A stretch of 64,000 bases of DNA from Fusobacterium ulcerans ATCC 49185 (GTDB lineage: Bacteria > Fusobacteriota > Fusobacteriia > Fusobacteriales > Fusobacteriaceae). The stretch spans positions 1,178,001 to 1,242,000 of the forward strand of contig NZ_LR215979.1 in NCBI RefSeq assembly GCF_900683735.1, written 5' to 3'. The notes under the pieces were generated by a model. It was not told where the DNA came from. It was given only the letters and a program-made list of their open reading frames with translations, and ran no database searches. This document shows positions 15,851 through 61,250 of this stretch, piece by piece. Numbering within the stretch: position 1 is the first letter of the stretch; every line of letters starts with the position of its first letter. The position numbers and the translations under genes are program-made.

Positions 15851-16019
15851 ATGAAAAAATATTTGTTAGTTTTATATATTGTTTTTGCAGGAGCTGTGTC
15901 TTCAGAAGAAAAAAGATTTTTTAGTTACAGAAGCAGTTTCAGGAGGAGAAAAAGAAGTACATAAAATATTAAATAAACTTGAAGATGGGTTGGAGAAATT
16001 AGATAAAAGTAATAAATAA
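15851..16019 (+). pseudogene. frameshifted small secreted peptide gene
   Basis: ATG at 15851 behind GGGAAGATTTT encodes a signal-like MKKYLLVLYIVFAGAVSS, then EEKRF. The frame then has to shift in a run of six T (15917-15922) to continue VTEAVSGGEKEVHKILNKLE and end at 16017-16019. The downstream half is helical. One base too many in the T run explains it. The family is not recognised. Confidence 0.5.
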
Positions 16020-16306
16020 ATTCAAAATAGTTTAAGGAATATAAGAAACAGATAACATGAAAAAGAGGCCTTTCGGAGAAAGAGATTCCTTTTATCTATA
16101 TTTATATATTGTTCGGAAAACAATTAAATTATAAACCTTTAAGTAGGTAAAAAGTCAAGAAAAATTTTTGTTAAGATTTTTTGTATAAAATAAAAACGTA
16201 ACAAAGAATTATATTGTATCTCTATAATTTTATCAAAAACTAAATAGTAAATTTATATGGTATAATATTTTATATATTAAAACTATTTTAATAAAGGGGA
16301 GATTTT

Positions 16307-17370
16307 ATGGAATTGTATCACTATGAAGATGAAGCAATAAAAACAGAAATTGTATGAAATCTAAAGTTAATGATGAAGAAATAGAACTAAAGCAGATAGA
16401 TTTTTCTAATATAAAAATGTTTCTTAAAAAAGGAATATTTATTATAACTGGATATTTGAGAGGAGAAGATGAAAAGAATCTTGCAGAGATTATGAAGTTA
16501 AATAAATGGAGCATGATTACTGGAACATCTAAAGAATCTTTGAGAGATATTGAAATTAAAATATCAAGAAATGGTTATGTTCTTAGGCACTTGATATTTG
16601 AGGGTTATTTATCTGCTTACCATGAAACTTATGATAATGCTAAAGGGTATAGATTCCATTTTATTCTAAGAGAACATAGAAAAATAAATAGAGATGGGGC
16701 ATATGTAAGAATGGTTACTCTTAAAGGAGTAACAGGTGATATGATAATTATGCCACAAGAATTTAGTTTCAGAGAAACAATGAATAATTCTTTTTTAAGT
16801 GGAATGAATGGTCTTGGAGGAATTGGGTTACTAGGGAAAGTTGGGACTACTACCCTAACTACTGCAAGTGGAGTAGTAACTTTCTTTTTTATAGCACACA
16901 GTACAGGAATGATAAGTGAGTTCATGGCAGATGTTACCTTTGTTATGAAAAAAGAGCCTGAAAAAATGGGAAGCTTTAATATGACTAGAGATTGGGTTTA
17001 TCAACCATTAGGAGAAATTTTTGTTGATTTTTTAGAAAGAAGAAGTTCAAAAATTAATATAAATAAAAATATAGGAATAGATACATATAATAATATAAAC
17101 TTAGCTTTATCTATCTTGACACTATATGAATCTATAAATAAATCATACCAAGGCTTAAAAGGATTAGTTCCACAGAGTGGAGAGAATAAAATGTATTATA
17201 AAATCAAATTTAAAGATGTAGCAGTAAGTACTTGGAGTACAAAATCAGTTCCATATAGAGAATATGGTGTTACAACTTTAAAAGCATTATTAGGAGATTT
17301 CGCAAATATATTGCCAGACACATATACAACAAAAGAAGCTATCAAAACAGAAATTAAAAAAGGAGAATAG
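16307..17370 (+). pseudogene. large uncharacterised protein with an early frameshift
   Basis: The only good ribosome site (AAAGGGGAGATTTT) precedes ATG 16307, which encodes MELYHYEDEAIKTEIV and stops. The long open frame of 338 codons begins out of frame at 16354 with no ribosome site. It contains MFLKKGIFIITGYLRG, several aromatic strands, a glycine-rich hydrophobic segment (about 148-185: GMNGLGGIGLLG..., then FFFIAHSTG) and KININKNIG. The joined protein would be about 353 aa. I do not recognise it. The hydrophobic middle suggests membrane insertion. Translation from the downstream ATG cannot be excluded. Confidence 0.5.
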
Positions 17371-52837: not shown

Positions 52838-53575
52838 GTGGCTGATTTAGATAAAAATGAATTAGAAAGAATGATTGATAAAATAACAGAAGTAGAAAAT
52901 CCAGAAGTTTATGCCAAAGAAGAAACCCATTTAAATAAACCAATAAAAAATATAAAATTTGGGCATATCTTAAATATAAACTGGGATAATTTAGTGAATA
53001 CTTTTAAAATAATGAAAGCTTTTTTTAAAGAAACAGTGTTAAAGCAAGATGTAGACAATAAAAATACTGCTGGGAAGATAGTTTGCAGAAATATAGATAA
53101 AAGCATAGAGGTGGGGGATATTTATTGTAGTTCTACAGTAAAAACAGAAGGAACAATTCCAGAAGGAGCAGGGTTACCATATAAAAATCCAAAAAATGGA
53201 GAAATAGAATGGACAAATAACATGGAAGCAGTAAGGAAACACACTGGAACAATATCCTTAGATGACATGAATGCTGTTGAAAAGGTAGATATTAATGGAA
53301 GTTTTAACATTTACGGAGGCAGCAGAAGTATAACGCTAGATGAAAAAGCTAAGAAATATAAGGTTTTAATGATAAAAGCTGGGGGAACAGAAAGTGATAT
53401 ACATTTTTTAATAATGATTCCAGGGCAAAGAATTGCATCTAGAGATGGAGTTAGATATGGTGGTGGAGCTATAAGTGCTTTATGGAATGGAGAACTGCAA
53501 GTTACTGTAAACCATTACCCTGGACCAAAAGATGGTTATACTGGAAGAGTAGAAGGAGTATGGGGGTTGATATAA
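52838..53575 (+). CDS. tail fibre or baseplate adaptor protein
   Basis: The 245-aa protein starts at GTG 52838 behind CAGGAGGTAAAAA. Residues about 1-85 may bind the baseplate. The C-terminal half (about 145-245) is a beta-rich domain ending in GVWGLI, resembling the end of shuffle cassette B (GIWGIM). It overlaps the fibre gene by one base. It may be a second receptor-binding protein or the adaptor for the collagen-like fibre. Confidence 0.6.
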   Translation: MADLDKNELERMIDKITEVENPEVYAKEETHLNKPIKNIKFGHILNINWDNLVNTFKIMKAFFKETVLKQDVDNKNTAGKIVCRNIDKSIEVGDIYCSSTVKTEGTIPEGAGLPYKNPKNGEIEWTNNMEAVRKHTGTISLDDMNAVEKVDINGSFNIYGGSRSITLDEKAKKYKVLMIKAGGTESDIHFLIMIPGQRIASRDGVRYGGGAISALWNGELQVTVNHYPGPKDGYTGRVEGVWGLI

Positions 53576-54888
53576 TGGGAAAAAGTGGAATGACATTAAA
53601 AGCAAGTGCAGAAGTAGTAAGAGGACCAAGAGGGCTTTCTATAAAAGAATTAAAATATAAAGAAACTCTAGCAAATGGAAATAATATATATGAGGTAATT
53701 TTAGAAAATAATGTAGTAATAGGAGAGATAGAATCTAAAAAAGGAGATAAGGGAATACAAGGAATAAAAGGGGATACAGGAAGGGGAATATTTTCTTTAT
53801 TAAAAAAAGGGAAACAAGGACCAGAAACAACATATGAATTTACATATACAGATGGTACTACAGATATTTTTATTGTAGAAGATGGCGAAAATGCTTATGA
53901 AATAGCAACAGACAATGGGTTTGAAGGAACAGAAGAAGAATGGTTGTTATCTCTTATAGGACCACAGGGAAAATCTTTGGAATTTAATTGGAATGGAACA
54001 GAACTAGGAATAAGGGTAGAAGGAGAAACTGCCTATAATTATGTAAATTTAAAAGGAGAAAAAGGAGAGACAGGACCACGAGGAATACAAGGACCAAAAG
54101 GAGAGAAGGGGGATAAAGGAGATGTAGGACCAGCAGGTGCACAGGGAATACAGGGAGTAGCAGGACCAAAGGGAGATAAAGGAGACATAGGGGCAACAGG
54201 ACCAAAAGGAGATAAAGGACCAGCAGGACCACAAGGAATACAGGGATTACAAGGAGTAGCAGGACCAAAGGGAGAGAAAGGGGACAAGGGAGAACAAGGC
54301 ATACAAGGACCAAAAGGAGAAAAAGGAGATATAGGACCAAAAGGAGACACAACAGCTATAACTTATGGAACTACAGCAGGAACTGTTATGGAAGGTAGTA
54401 AGTTAGCAGAAATTTTAGGAATCCCATATGGTGGTTCTTTAAATACAACAACAAGCAAAGTGGTAGGAACAGCCTATTATGATAATACTACTAAAAAAAC
54501 TTATAAATGTACTGTTGCAAATTCTTTAAATTACGCAGATAGCACAAAATTCGAAGCTATTTCGAATAATGACTTGTTGGCGAAATTACAGAATTTATCC
54601 AATTGGGAAAGTGGTTCTAATAGTAATGGATTTTGGTTTAAAGAAAAAATAATTGGTTTAAAAATTGCTTATAGAAGAGGTATAGCAATAGGTCAAGACA
54701 GTACAATAACTATAACTTTACCTATAATTTTTACCACTACTAATTATATAGTTAATGCTCAAGCTGAACATCTGCGAAATGACTCTTGGGGTAATAACTT
54801 AGGAATAAATATTATTAATACTTCAAGTTTTAAAATTCATAGTAGTGGAACTCAAAGCCCATTTTCATTTGTAGCAATAGGGTATTGA
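53575..54888 (+). CDS. collagen-like tail fibre with invertible C-terminus
   Basis: The 437-aa fibre starts at 53575, overlapping the previous stop (TAATG). Residues about 160-262 are collagen-type Gly-X-Y repeats ([20 protein letters not shown] and similar) that form a triple helix. A constant neck follows (about 263-337), then the shuffle site at 54583-54596 inside codons for Lys-Leu-Gln-Asn-Leu. The present tip (cassette A, 100 aa from Leu-Gln-Asn) ends in FSFVAIGY. Four alternative tips lie downstream. This should be the receptor-binding fibre, and its host range may vary by inversion. Confidence 0.92.
54583..54596 (+). repeat. shuffle site 1 (forward, expression site)
   Basis: AAATTACAGAATTT contains the 13-bp site AATTACAGAATTT within the coding frame. 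It marks the border between the constant part of the fibre and the tip. The AAATT/AATTT arms surround an asymmetric ACAG, which gives the site its direction. Confidence 0.88.
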
Positions 54889-55181
54889 TTACATTATTCC
54901 CCATATTCCTGTCAATGTAGGAGTAGAATAATTATTTCTCACTGTTTTTATTGTCAATGAACTATCAGTAAAATTTAAAGTAAACCCAGAACCTTTGGCA
55001 TTATCAGCATCGTCATCACCTCCCCCAGTAACATTTTTTATAAAAACATAGCTATTTAATCCGTGTAAATTTACATTACAAAAAATAACAGAATAATTTT
55101 TTAATGCTGAAATTTGTAATGTAGTATTTGCTATACTTCCTGTCCAAAGTTTTGTTGGAATTATATTTAAATTCTGTAATT
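54889..55181 (-). other. silent fibre tip cassette B
   Basis: Read leftward from site 2, a frame of 96 codons (LQNLNIIPTKLWTGSIANTT ... LTGIWGIM) runs to TAA at 54891-54889. It joins the fibre in frame if sites 1 and 2 recombine. Its stop abuts the stop of the expressed cassette A tail to tail. It has no start codon or ribosome site of its own. Confidence 0.88.
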
Positions 55182-55190
55182 ACAGAATTT
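55169..55190. repeat. shuffle sites 2 and 3 fused head to head
   Basis: AAATTCTGTAATTACAGAATTT is a perfect 22-bp palindrome. The reverse site (55169-55181) serves cassette B and the forward site (55178-55190) serves cassette C; they share AATT. Confidence 0.88.
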
Positions 55191-55458
55191 AAGTATAATT
55201 CCTGATTATTCAAATCCTCAAAGATTGACTTGGGGGCAAAATAATACAATTGTTAAAAATGGAATCATTCAAATTTATTTTTATGCTTCAAACAATTTAA
55301 CTATTACCATCACAATAAATGGAAACGACTTTAATTATAAAACTCGTGATGCTGCAGCTAATAGACTTATTTATCAAGTAGGTATAGGAGATACTGTTTA
55401 TTGTTCTGGAGGTTACGATTCTCAATCACTTGTATTTTTTCCATATAGAAGTAATTAA
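55178..55458 (+). other. silent fibre tip cassette C
   Basis: From site 3 the frame LQNLSIIPDYSNPQRLTWGQ runs 92 codons to TAA (55456-55458), ending VFFPYRSN. It contains YCSGGYDSQSLVFF. It is in the same frame as cassette A relative to the site. No start or ribosome site is present. Confidence 0.87.
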
Positions 55459-55469
55459 TTACAGAATTT
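55457..55469 (+). repeat. shuffle site 4 (forward)
   Basis: AATTACAGAATTT, overlapping the stop codon of cassette C by two bases, begins cassette D. It is a direct repeat of sites 1 and 3, so deletion between them is also possible. Confidence 0.87.
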
Positions 55470-55803
55470 CAATATATATTCTGAAGATATTCTTTATGAT
55501 ACAGTTAAATCTATTTCCAGTGGGCAAAATATGGATGTTATTTTAAATTCTAATATTTCAAATTATAAAATACTCTCTATTCAATTTAAATTTAACTTAA
55601 ATATGGATAAACAAGGATTCTACAGAGTTGCACTTGTTCTTAAAAGTGCTGTAGAACAAGGAATAAATATTACTCGTGGTGGTGATGGTGGACACAATTA
55701 TGCTATAGGACTATTTGTCACAAAGAAAAGTGATACAATCTTAAACTTCAAAGCCTATGATGATTTAATAACAATAAAATCAATAGTTGGGATTAAAATT
55801 TAA
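55457..55803 (+). other. silent fibre tip cassette D
   Basis: From site 4 the frame LQNFNIYSEDILYDTVKSIS runs 114 codons to TAA at 55801-55803, ending SIVGIKI. It includes GGDGGHNYAIGLFVTKK, a typical glycine-rich fibre tip segment. It lacks a start signal. Confidence 0.87.
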
Positions 55804-56124
55804 TTCCTATTATTCTTCTGAATGTATTGTCACCATGACTTGAGCCATTATAAAATCCAGCATATGTAATAGTTCCATTGATAGTATTTATAGTATGAAC
55901 TGTTCCTCCCCAAGTATCAGTTAAAATAATCGAAAAACTATTTTCAGTTTTTTTTATTGGATATATCAGGGGATTATAAAAGATTGTATTGTTATATGTT
56001 CCTGAAAAAACAAAAATAATTAATTTATAACTTCTTAAATCTTTATTTAAAGAAAGAGTTTTATCCCAAGTTGAAGCTCCTTCCCATATTGTTTCAATAC
56101 TAATGTTAGTTAAATTCTGTAATT
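55793..56124 (-). other. silent fibre tip cassette E
   Basis: Read leftward from site 5, LQNLTNISIETIWEGASTWD runs 109 codons to TAA (55795-55793), ending RRIIGIKF. Its end overlaps the end of cassette D by 11 bases. It joins the fibre if sites 1 and 5 recombine. Confidence 0.87.
56112..56124 (-). repeat. shuffle site 5 (reverse)
   Basis: AAATTCTGTAATT, the reverse form of the 13-bp site. It is the outer border of the invertible array and lies 55 bases before the recombinase start. Confidence 0.87.
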
Positions 56125-56132
56125 AATGACTT

Positions 56133-56166
56133 CTGTTATACTATATATGCTAAGAAAGTATAACAG
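56133..56166 (+). promoter_or_regulatory. inverted repeat over the recombinase ribosome site
   Basis: CTGTTATACT (56133-56142) and AGTATAACAG (56157-56166) are perfect 10-bp arms with a 14-nt loop. The right arm ends in the first bases of AGGAGG at 56165-56170. In RNA the hairpin would hold the ribosome site, or in DNA be an operator. TATACT within the left arm could be a -10 box. Confidence 0.6.
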
Positions 56167-56178
56167 GAGGAAATGGAA

Positions 56179-57138
56179 ATGAAGAGTTATAATAAAGCAA
56201 ATTTAGAGGTATATGAGATGTACTTAGAAAGTAACAAAGCTAGGAACTTTGAAACGCTCAATACTACATATAGGGTGTATAAAAGTAATATGCTACAGTT
56301 TATGCAATATCTACAAAAAAATGAGGGGAACAGGCTATTGCTGAGTGATAGCACTATTAAAAATTGTGTATCTGTTTTAGAAAGATACATAAATTTCTGT
56401 AGAGATTCTGGGAATAATAACCAGACTATAAATAATAAGCTTACAGCTATTTCAAGTTTTTATATTTGGGCTGTAAAAAGAGATCTTATCTCCCATCACC
56501 CTTTCATGCACAAGTTAGATCGTTTAAGAAAGGGGGCATTTGATAAGAGAAGAGAAAGTTACTTTTTAAATATAGAGGATATTATAAAAGCTAGAATACT
56601 TATGCAACATAATTATAAAAAATTTGATATCCAATCTAGGCTTTTATGGGAATTATTTCTGGAAAGTGCTTGCAGAATATCGGCTGTACAAAACCTTACT
56701 TTTAGCCAATTAGATTTAAAAAATGGTTATTTTACAGGAGTTAGGGAAAAAGGGAACAAGATGGTAGATGTCATTTTTTTAGATAATACAGAAAAAATTT
56801 TAAGGGAATGGATAGAGTACAGAAAAAACAATAACATAGATATAGATTATATCTTTATTACCAAAGAAAATAAAGAATACAGGCAGATGGCTCAAAGTAC
56901 TATAAGAAACAGGATTAAGAGAATAGGGGAGCTGATAGGATACAATAAATTATATCCCCATACTCTTAGAAAAACAGCTGTAAATCTACTAAAAAATTGG
57001 AGTGATATAAATACAGCCGCAGAGTTTGCAAACCATATGGATACCAAAACTACTGTGGAACATTATATTAAAGCAAAAACAGGTACAGAAAATCGTCAGA
57101 AAATTTTGCAAATTCGTAGAGAAAAAGGCTTAATTTAA
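56179..57138 (+). CDS. tyrosine recombinase of the fibre shuffle
   Basis: The 319-aa phage-integrase family enzyme has a SAM-like core-binding domain (about 5-95) and a catalytic domain with Arg in ESACRISAVQNLTF (about 165), HTLRK (about 255-259), NHMDTKTTVEHYIK with the His and the nucleophile Tyr (about 291). ATG 56179 is 8 bases from AGGAGG; ATG 56173 is too close. Its gene lies immediately beyond the last of five invertible sites, the position of Rci in plasmid shufflons. It most likely inverts the tips; a second tyrosine recombinase at attR is free to be the integrase. Confidence 0.9.
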   Translation: MKSYNKANLEVYEMYLESNKARNFETLNTTYRVYKSNMLQFMQYLQKNEGNRLLLSDSTIKNCVSVLERYINFCRDSGNNNQTINNKLTAISSFYIWAVKRDLISHHPFMHKLDRLRKGAFDKRRESYFLNIEDIIKARILMQHNYKKFDIQSRLLWELFLESACRISAVQNLTFSQLDLKNGYFTGVREKGNKMVDVIFLDNTEKILREWIEYRKNNNIDIDYIFITKENKEYRQMAQSTIRNRIKRIGELIGYNKLYPHTLRKTAVNLLKNWSDINTAAEFANHMDTKTTVEHYIKAKTGTENRQKILQIRREKGLI

Positions 57139-57407
57139 GTCAAAAAACTGGTTAAATTATTGAATTTACACAATTTTTTATAAAGTTTCAAGATTGAAAT
57201 ACCTTGATTTTATTGAATTTACAAAGTTTTAAAAAAATTTTGCTCTTAACTTTTGGATCAACTACAGCTTTATTTTAAAATTTATAAATCCTTATTATTT
57301 CGGAACTTTCGAAATATAATAAACTTAAATTTTTGATGAAATTCAATAATTTACATATAGTAAAAATTAGAATATTTAACAAATAAAATTACAAAAAGGA
57401 GAGAAAA
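57139..57407. other. intergenic region with repeated ATTATTGAATTTACA words
   Basis: ATTATTGAATTTACA (57156-57170) and a near copy (57208-57223) are direct repeats, and ATTCAATAAT (57341-57350) is an inverted partial copy. A TTTCGGAACTTTCGAAA inverted repeat lies at 57298-57314. No gene is visible. The role is unknown. Confidence 0.4.
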
Positions 57408-59926: not shown

Positions 59927-60346
59927 ATGAAAACATATAAAGTTAAATTCGGGTGTGGGCATGAAGGAACAGTGGCTGTTGAAAAAGGGGAATATTGGAA
60001 AGTAGAAAATGCAGATAGAAACTTGTGTTACAAATGTTATAAAAAAGCACAGGAAGAAAGACAAAAAATAGAAAATGAAAAGGCACAAAAAGAATTTATA
60101 GAAGCAGGTTATCCAGAGTTAATAGGTAAACCAGCAGATGTGGCACAAGCTATAAGAATTAGAAAAGCTTGGATAGATTTCCACAATGATATAAAAGATA
60201 GAACTGTAAAAGGACAAGAGAAATACCTAGAATTTTTTAAAGAAACTATCTATACAAAGAATACAGAATTCTTTTGTAAGATAGGAGGATTTCAAGAAAA
60301 TATTATAAAATATCTTAGAACTTTAGGTGATAAAAATGACGCTTAA
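59927..60346 (+). CDS. 139-aa protein with N-terminal zinc-binding motif
   Basis: The N-terminus has FGCGHEGTV and LCYKCYKKAQ (Cys9, His11, Cys34, Cys37), likely one zinc. A helical charged body follows, with GKPADVAQAIRIRKAWIDFH. It lies directly before the integrase gene and overlaps it by 11 bases, a place typical of excisionase or regulators, but this is not a known Xis family. AAGGAGGAATAAAAT precedes the start. Confidence 0.6.
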   Translation: MKTYKVKFGCGHEGTVAVEKGEYWKVENADRNLCYKCYKKAQEERQKIENEKAQKEFIEAGYPELIGKPADVAQAIRIRKAWIDFHNDIKDRTVKGQEKYLEFFKETIYTKNTEFFCKIGGFQENIIKYLRTLGDKNDA

Positions 60347-61250
60347 AGATATGCTAGATATTCATTTTAGAGAATTAAAAACTAGGGTTAGGAGCTCTAG
60401 TTATACAGTAACATATACAACTACAAATAATATGTTTAAACAAAGTAAAGAGATTTTAGATAAAGATTTAAAAGAAATTACTGTAGAGGACATTATTCTT
60501 TTAAAAGAAAAATGCTATGGAAAATATAATAATAACCTAGTTGCTAGGTTAATAAGACTTATAAAAAAGTTTTTAAAAGAGTCCTTTATACTGGGACATA
60601 CAAAGGTAAATATAGGGGATTTAATAAATCCCCTAAAATTTACAGAATATAAAGTCACAAAAATTATAAATTTAGAGCAATTTGAAGATATAATAAGATA
60701 CATCCAAAAAGACAAAGAAGATAGAACAGAAGAAATTCTCTATTTGAAATTGTTATTTAAAACAGGTATGAGGAATGGAGAAGCAAGAGGTCTGCAATGG
60801 GAAGATATAGATTTTGTCAAAGGAACAGTTTTTATAAGAAAATCTGTTTATTCTTTAACACATGGAAATTTTATAATAAATAAGCCTAAAACTAAACAGT
60901 CTACTAGAATAATACATCTCCCAAAGTCTCTGCTAGAAGACTTAAAAATATATAAAGAATTTATTACAGAGCATAAGGACAATCAGGATTTTATATTTTG
61001 TAGAGAAAAAGGGATTCCTCATACAAGTGGTTTTAATAAAAGTACATTAAAAAGAGCTTGTAAGGCTTTAAATATACAAATTAGCCATCATGGACTAAGA
61101 CATAGTCACGCTACTTTTTTAATTCAGAACAATATTCCTCCCCATTTAGTTCAATATAGATTGGGGCATTCAGATATAAAAACAACATTAAAGACATATA
61201 CTCATATAAAATTTTATGAGGAAAAGGAAATTTTAAATATACTAGATTGA
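60336..61250 (+). CDS. tyrosine integrase at attR
   Basis: The 304-aa phage integrase has a SAM-like N-terminal domain (about 1-95) and a catalytic domain with Arg in KTGMRNGEARGLQWED (about 144), HHGLRHSHATFL (about 250-261), GHSDIKTTLKTYTHI with the His and nucleophile Tyr (about 289). ATG 60336 follows AGGTGATAAAA; GTG 60327 is an alternative. It lies 570 bp from the tRNA-Leu att site, so it is the more typical candidate for tRNA-directed integration than the serine enzyme at attL. Confidence 0.92.
   Translation: MTLKDMLDIHFRELKTRVRSSSYTVTYTTTNNMFKQSKEILDKDLKEITVEDIILLKEKCYGKYNNNLVARLIRLIKKFLKESFILGHTKVNIGDLINPLKFTEYKVTKIINLEQFEDIIRYIQKDKEDRTEEILYLKLLFKTGMRNGEARGLQWEDIDFVKGTVFIRKSVYSLTHGNFIINKPKTKQSTRIIHLPKSLLEDLKIYKEFITEHKDNQDFIFCREKGIPHTSGFNKSTLKRACKALNIQISHHGLRHSHATFLIQNNIPPHLVQYRLGHSDIKTTLKTYTHIKFYEEKEILNILD

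Follow-up and report, generated by a model that had tools for sequence, protein, structure and literature searches.

A predicted tail-fibre shufflon with its own tyrosine recombinase in a Fusobacterium ulcerans prophage

Introduction

Multiple DNA inversion by a tyrosine recombinase is known from the shufflon of plasmid R64, where Rci rearranges C-terminal cassettes that lack start codons. The target of R64/Rci is the PilV pilus tip, whereas the locus described here concerns a phage fibre, and the host group and the site also differ; the comparison with Rci was made by description only. In phages, fibre ends are inverted by Gin, Cin, and Min, the last of which has many sites (PMC6109161). These are serine recombinases, whereas the enzyme described here is a tyrosine recombinase according to its Pfam match and catalytic residues.

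The first phage tyrosine recombinase reported to shuffle fibre tips was Rin of Bifidobacterium prophages, published in 2018 (PMC6109161), and a counterpart was later reported in Eggerthella lenta (PMC8778435). Both systems reside in prophages, where C-terminal tips of about 100 residues are swapped on a constant receptor-binding protein. They use short asymmetric sites (11 bp and 8 bp), a Xer-sized tyrosine recombinase separate from the integrase is encoded next to them, and inversions were seen between related prophages (PMC6109161, PMC8778435). A locus resembling them in the first three respects was found in the 64,000-nucleotide stretch of Fusobacterium ulcerans ATCC 49185 analyzed in this study (the window), and the likeness in inversions holds for its phage lineage. 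The literature search found no paper on a Fusobacterium shufflon; surveys of programmed inversions beyond that search may already include some of the loci described here.

Results

The window includes a prophage that encodes a terminase, a major head protein, a tape measure, a tail fibre, and a lysozyme. The collagen-like tail fibre gene (53575..54888, + strand; Pfam Collagen, PHROGs tail fibre) is composed of a constant part (53575-54585) and tip A, which extends from the first recombination site to 54888. Beyond it, four silent tips were found as open frames: tip B (54889..55179, - strand, 96 codons), tip C (55180..55458, + strand, 92 codons), tip D (55459..55803, + strand, 114 codons), and tip E (55793..56122, - strand, 109 codons). 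Including the 100 codons of tip A, all five frames begin with Leu-Gln-Asn (LQN) in the fibre phase, and the lengths and starts given in the initial annotation were confirmed. Frames as long as the cassettes remained open in 0-0.02% of letter shuffles. Tips A and B end tail to tail at 54888/54889, as do D and E, whose ends overlap by about 10 bp.

The 13-bp sequence AATTACAGAATTT is present in five exact copies in the array, three on the + strand and two on the - strand, each at the position and on the strand first proposed. These are site 1 within the fibre gene (54584..54596, +), site 2 (55169..55181, -), site 3 (55178..55190, +), site 4 (55457..55469, +), and site 5 (56112..56124, -), the last lying 55 bp ahead of the recombinase gene. 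Among 100 dinucleotide-preserving shuffles, exact copies occurred with a mean of 0.02 and a largest count of 1. The 3.84-Mb genome contains one further exact copy outside the array, which lies within a permease-like gene and was rejected as a chance match.

The fibre frame runs into the first copy alone, with 377 open codons upstream. At all four silent copies, the in-frame codon preceding the TTA is TAA, which leaves the silent tips with neither an upstream frame nor a start codon of their own, as had been claimed; at site 4, this TAA doubles as the stop of cassette C. Sites 2 and 3 meet head to head and share 4 bp, and the array therefore consists of three invertible blocks: A/B, C, and D/E. 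When inversions between opposed sites were simulated, 32 orders were obtained in all, and each tip could come in frame: tip A in the current order, B or E after one inversion, and C or D after two. Both features that define a shufflon were found in the array, namely at least three sites in both orientations (five, all exact) and start-less C-terminal cassettes in phase with a single constant gene.

A weak Gp53-like_C match was observed in tip A. Its structural model (mean pLDDT 71) matched R-type pyocin fibre tips and phage AP22 gp53 in Foldseek, with probabilities of 0.99-1.00 and E values of 0.004-0.03, and because of this resemblance tip A is likely receptor-binding. Searches of Pfam and PHROGs gave no family match for tips B-E. 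Cassette C has a silent homologue of 60% identity in the relative G009, and the pair yielded a dN of 0.25, a dS of 1.34, and a dN/dS of about 0.19, which is approximate given the high dS. These values indicate that silent cassette C is under purifying selection at the protein level, and selection of this kind on a silent sequence implies that the sequence must be used at times. Additionally, a fibre neck of the form YGGxLN...YYD...LNYAD...ISNNDLL was kept just ahead of the site in G001 (L047 15300-16117) and in the window (54350-54596), though the fibre bodies are unrelated, as if it were a fitting for any tip.

The gene just past site 5, with its start at either 56173 or 56179 and its end at 57138, encodes a tyrosine recombinase of 319 aa (56179..57138, + strand). 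Its identity, proposed earlier, was borne out by matches to Pfam Phage_integrase (6e-24) and XerA/XerD and by a complete set of catalytic residues (R166, K194, H261, R264, H286, and Y296). The prophage integrase is encoded separately at 60327-61250, and the enzyme past site 5 is, by its sequence, a second and Xer-like tyrosine recombinase of the prophage.

For comparison of the enzymes, a Rin locus was recovered through its rix sites. The window locus shares the defining arrangement of Rin, in which a phage tyrosine recombinase other than the integrase exchanges receptor-binding tips. However, the two enzymes shared only a 33-residue match (E 6e-4), and in the tree Rin joined an ordinary integrase outside the clade of the window enzyme, a placement that long branches make rough. 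The rix site (TTCCCTAACCC) differs from AATTACAGAATTT, and the recombinase faces the fibre in the recovered Rin locus whereas it reads with the fibre in the window. A second inverton is found in the window, whereas the consulted sections of the Rin report describe none (PMC6109161). The window system hence appears to work like Rin but not to belong to the Rin lineage. The initial annotation had called a five-way phage shuffle with a 13-bp site and a tyrosine enzyme unusual; this was overstated, given the 2018 report on Rin (PMC6109161), and what stands is that neither the enzyme nor the site belongs to the Rin lineage.

Site-to-site inversion was seen in related phages, and only one order is known for the window strain. 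Cetobacterium sp. 2A, a member of the same family, harbours a related phage in three copies (L011, L012, and L013), with a recombinase of 73% identity and seven sites each (ATTAGAGAATTT). The 7.6 kb upstream was identical in all three copies, but the arrays differ: L013 is converted to L011 by one inversion and L012 by two, with 0 mismatches left in 2.5 kb. The inversion breakpoints are the sites, and a different fibre tip is exposed in each copy. Similarly, in G053, from another family of the same order, two prophages with different fibre bodies share a pair of tips (98.9% identical), and the tip that is active in one is silent in the other. The bases left of the site remained with the place and those on the right traveled with the tip, which locates the exchange inside GAAAATTT. 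Related viruses with tips in differing orders show that switching really happens in these relatives.

When viral contigs were scanned for the fibre neck, cassette C, and cassette E, no alternative array order of the window strain emerged, the only matches being an identical strain record and L067. A comparison of the Funu1, G019, and pSB029A arrays revealed no clear further shufflon inversion, and L014 and L015, tried as an inversion test, were two contigs of one MAG with the same order and were uninformative.

Arrays among the relatives had 2, 3, 4, 5, 7, and 13 sites. The largest was found in G009 (L048 11430-14886; recombinase 80% identical), which exceeds the window array with 13 sites and eight distinct tips. 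It contains 100-N assembly gaps and repeated tips, as would be expected if a mixture of orders had been assembled, and its exact count is unsure because of the gaps. Losses were also observed: the enzyme is intact and both tips are frameshifted in G001, the closest relative, the enzyme is cut down to a fragment in G002, and L067 has no recombinase. A fixed order with decaying silent cassettes, which the initial annotation had named as refuting its proposal, was not common to all relatives, although one of them, G001, is decayed.

A close relative of the enzyme was present in 20 of 98 Fusobacteriota genomes, not every one of which has a visible array. Across Fusobacteriota, the enzyme recurs together with an inverted site, which lies about 40-100 bp upstream of its gene. 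The sites differ between species yet match within each array; in the fibre, they follow the pattern TTR-NAN-AAT-YT at many related loci and read Leu-x-Asn, for example LQN in the window, LEN in Cetobacterium and Funu1, and LNN in phiRTG5. The published Fusobacterium phages Funu1 (L061) and phiRTG5 (L062) share the layout of fibre, inverted silent tip, and recombinase; the enzyme is labelled "integrase" in their records, where the silent tips are given as "hypothetical". Outside Fusobacteriota, the closest enzymes include those of the large phages Lysinibacillus LC76P1 (L063) and Brevibacillus Sundance (L065) and of Bacillus velezensis plasmids (H23-H25), at 31-40% identity; the annotation of the two phages shows no evident fibre array. 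In large Firmicutes phages that encode distant relatives of the recombinase (29-37% identity), no fibre array was annotated beside the gene.

A second, small inverton (57153..57353, without strand assignment), which the initial annotation had missed, is located after the recombinase stop codon and ahead of the following gene, where inverted 15-bp sites (TAAATTATTGAATTT) at 57153-57167 and 57339-57353 surround 171 bp. Inverted pairs of 13-17 bp were found 3' of the recombinase in 10 of the 25 loci examined; of 1000 shuffles, 0-2 reached such a pair in six loci and up to 25 in others. The arms are those of the shufflon sites of the same phage, and the centres differ. Specifically, AAATT-ACAG-AATTTA and AAATT-ATTG-AATTTA occur in the window, and AAATT-AAAT-AATTTA and AAATT-TTGA-AATTTA in L010. 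The inverton centre varies between species (ATTG in the window, ATTC in G001) and is equal within a pair, as strand exchange requires.

L011 and L013 (10957-11124) carry the segment in opposite orientations, as do the two G053 prophages; it lies in G002 the opposite way round to G000 and G001, and occurs in both orientations in the G009 assembly (L048 ~15913-16115 and 16350-16550). Flipping of the small inverton is well supported by these comparisons. Given the shared arms and the position, the shufflon enzyme probably also flips this 171-bp segment behind its own gene. The small inverton was also noted at L049 and L056/L078. Promoter, terminator, and Rfam scans of it gave nothing decisive, and its fold z-score of -3.1 is due at least partly to the long inverted sites themselves.

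Discussion

The window array is very probably a tailed-prophage DNA shufflon that still works or did so until very recently. The initial proposal of a five-cassette shufflon with its own tyrosine recombinase agrees with the architecture, the start-less tips, and the complete catalytic residues, and the inversions at the sites were seen directly in related phages. In the proposed mechanism, the adjacent tyrosine recombinase would exchange strands between opposed copies of the 13-bp site, and the resulting inversion would flip the blocks A/B, C, and D/E singly or together. In this way, a single receptor-binding tip out of five would be set in frame after the constant collagen-like fibre. The silent tips are not translated, owing to the TAA directly ahead of each silent site. 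The array of the window strain itself presumably still inverts, the adjacent enzyme would be the one that performs the inversions, and the tips may set host range. Against this reading stand the identical order in the sole other record of the strain, the frameshifted tips beside an intact enzyme in G001, and the lack of family matches for tips B-E.

Two other explanations were weighed. The shufflon may once have been active and now be frozen in the window strain, with tip A fixed and the silent tips as relics that have not yet decayed. This would agree with the single order known for the strain, whose sole other record is identical, and with the existence of relatives with decayed tips or a lost recombinase (G001, G002, and L067), but five frames are open, five sites are exact, the catalytic residues are complete, and silent cassette C shows purifying selection, and we consider a frozen state quite improbable. 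That the array grew through duplications and homologous exchange among phages, with the repeats only as conserved neck joints and the enzyme as a second integrase, is hardly credible. Repeats of 13 bp do not suffice for homologous recombination, the inversions are exact and leave the array otherwise unchanged, the prophage has a separate integrase, and the sites differ between species and match within an array; on the other side stand tips common to distant phages (homologues 54-60% identical) and the name "integrase" in the Funu1 and phiRTG5 records.

The working shufflon may also be one of two switches under one recombinase. We tentatively propose, without quite favouring it, that the enzyme serves both the fibre shufflon and a 171-bp regulatory inverton, with shared arms and a different 4-bp centre keeping the two apart, such that fibre choice and the expression of the downstream lysis genes (or of the recombinase) would be set independently. 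A second switch beside a fibre shufflon is not described in the papers found and is worth testing. The paired substrates, with the same arms and different centres, make it possible to test directly how a single enzyme would separate two targets and whether fibre choice is tied to lysis.

The relatives with 2, 3, 4, 5, 7, and 13 sites form a natural series for the growth and decay of such arrays. As the labels in the Funu1 and phiRTG5 records illustrate, host-range predictions from a single assembly miss most tips. The locus extends the shuffling of fibre tips by tyrosine recombinases to phages of Fusobacteriota, and with an enzyme lineage apart from that of Rin, it seems that this solution evolved more than once.
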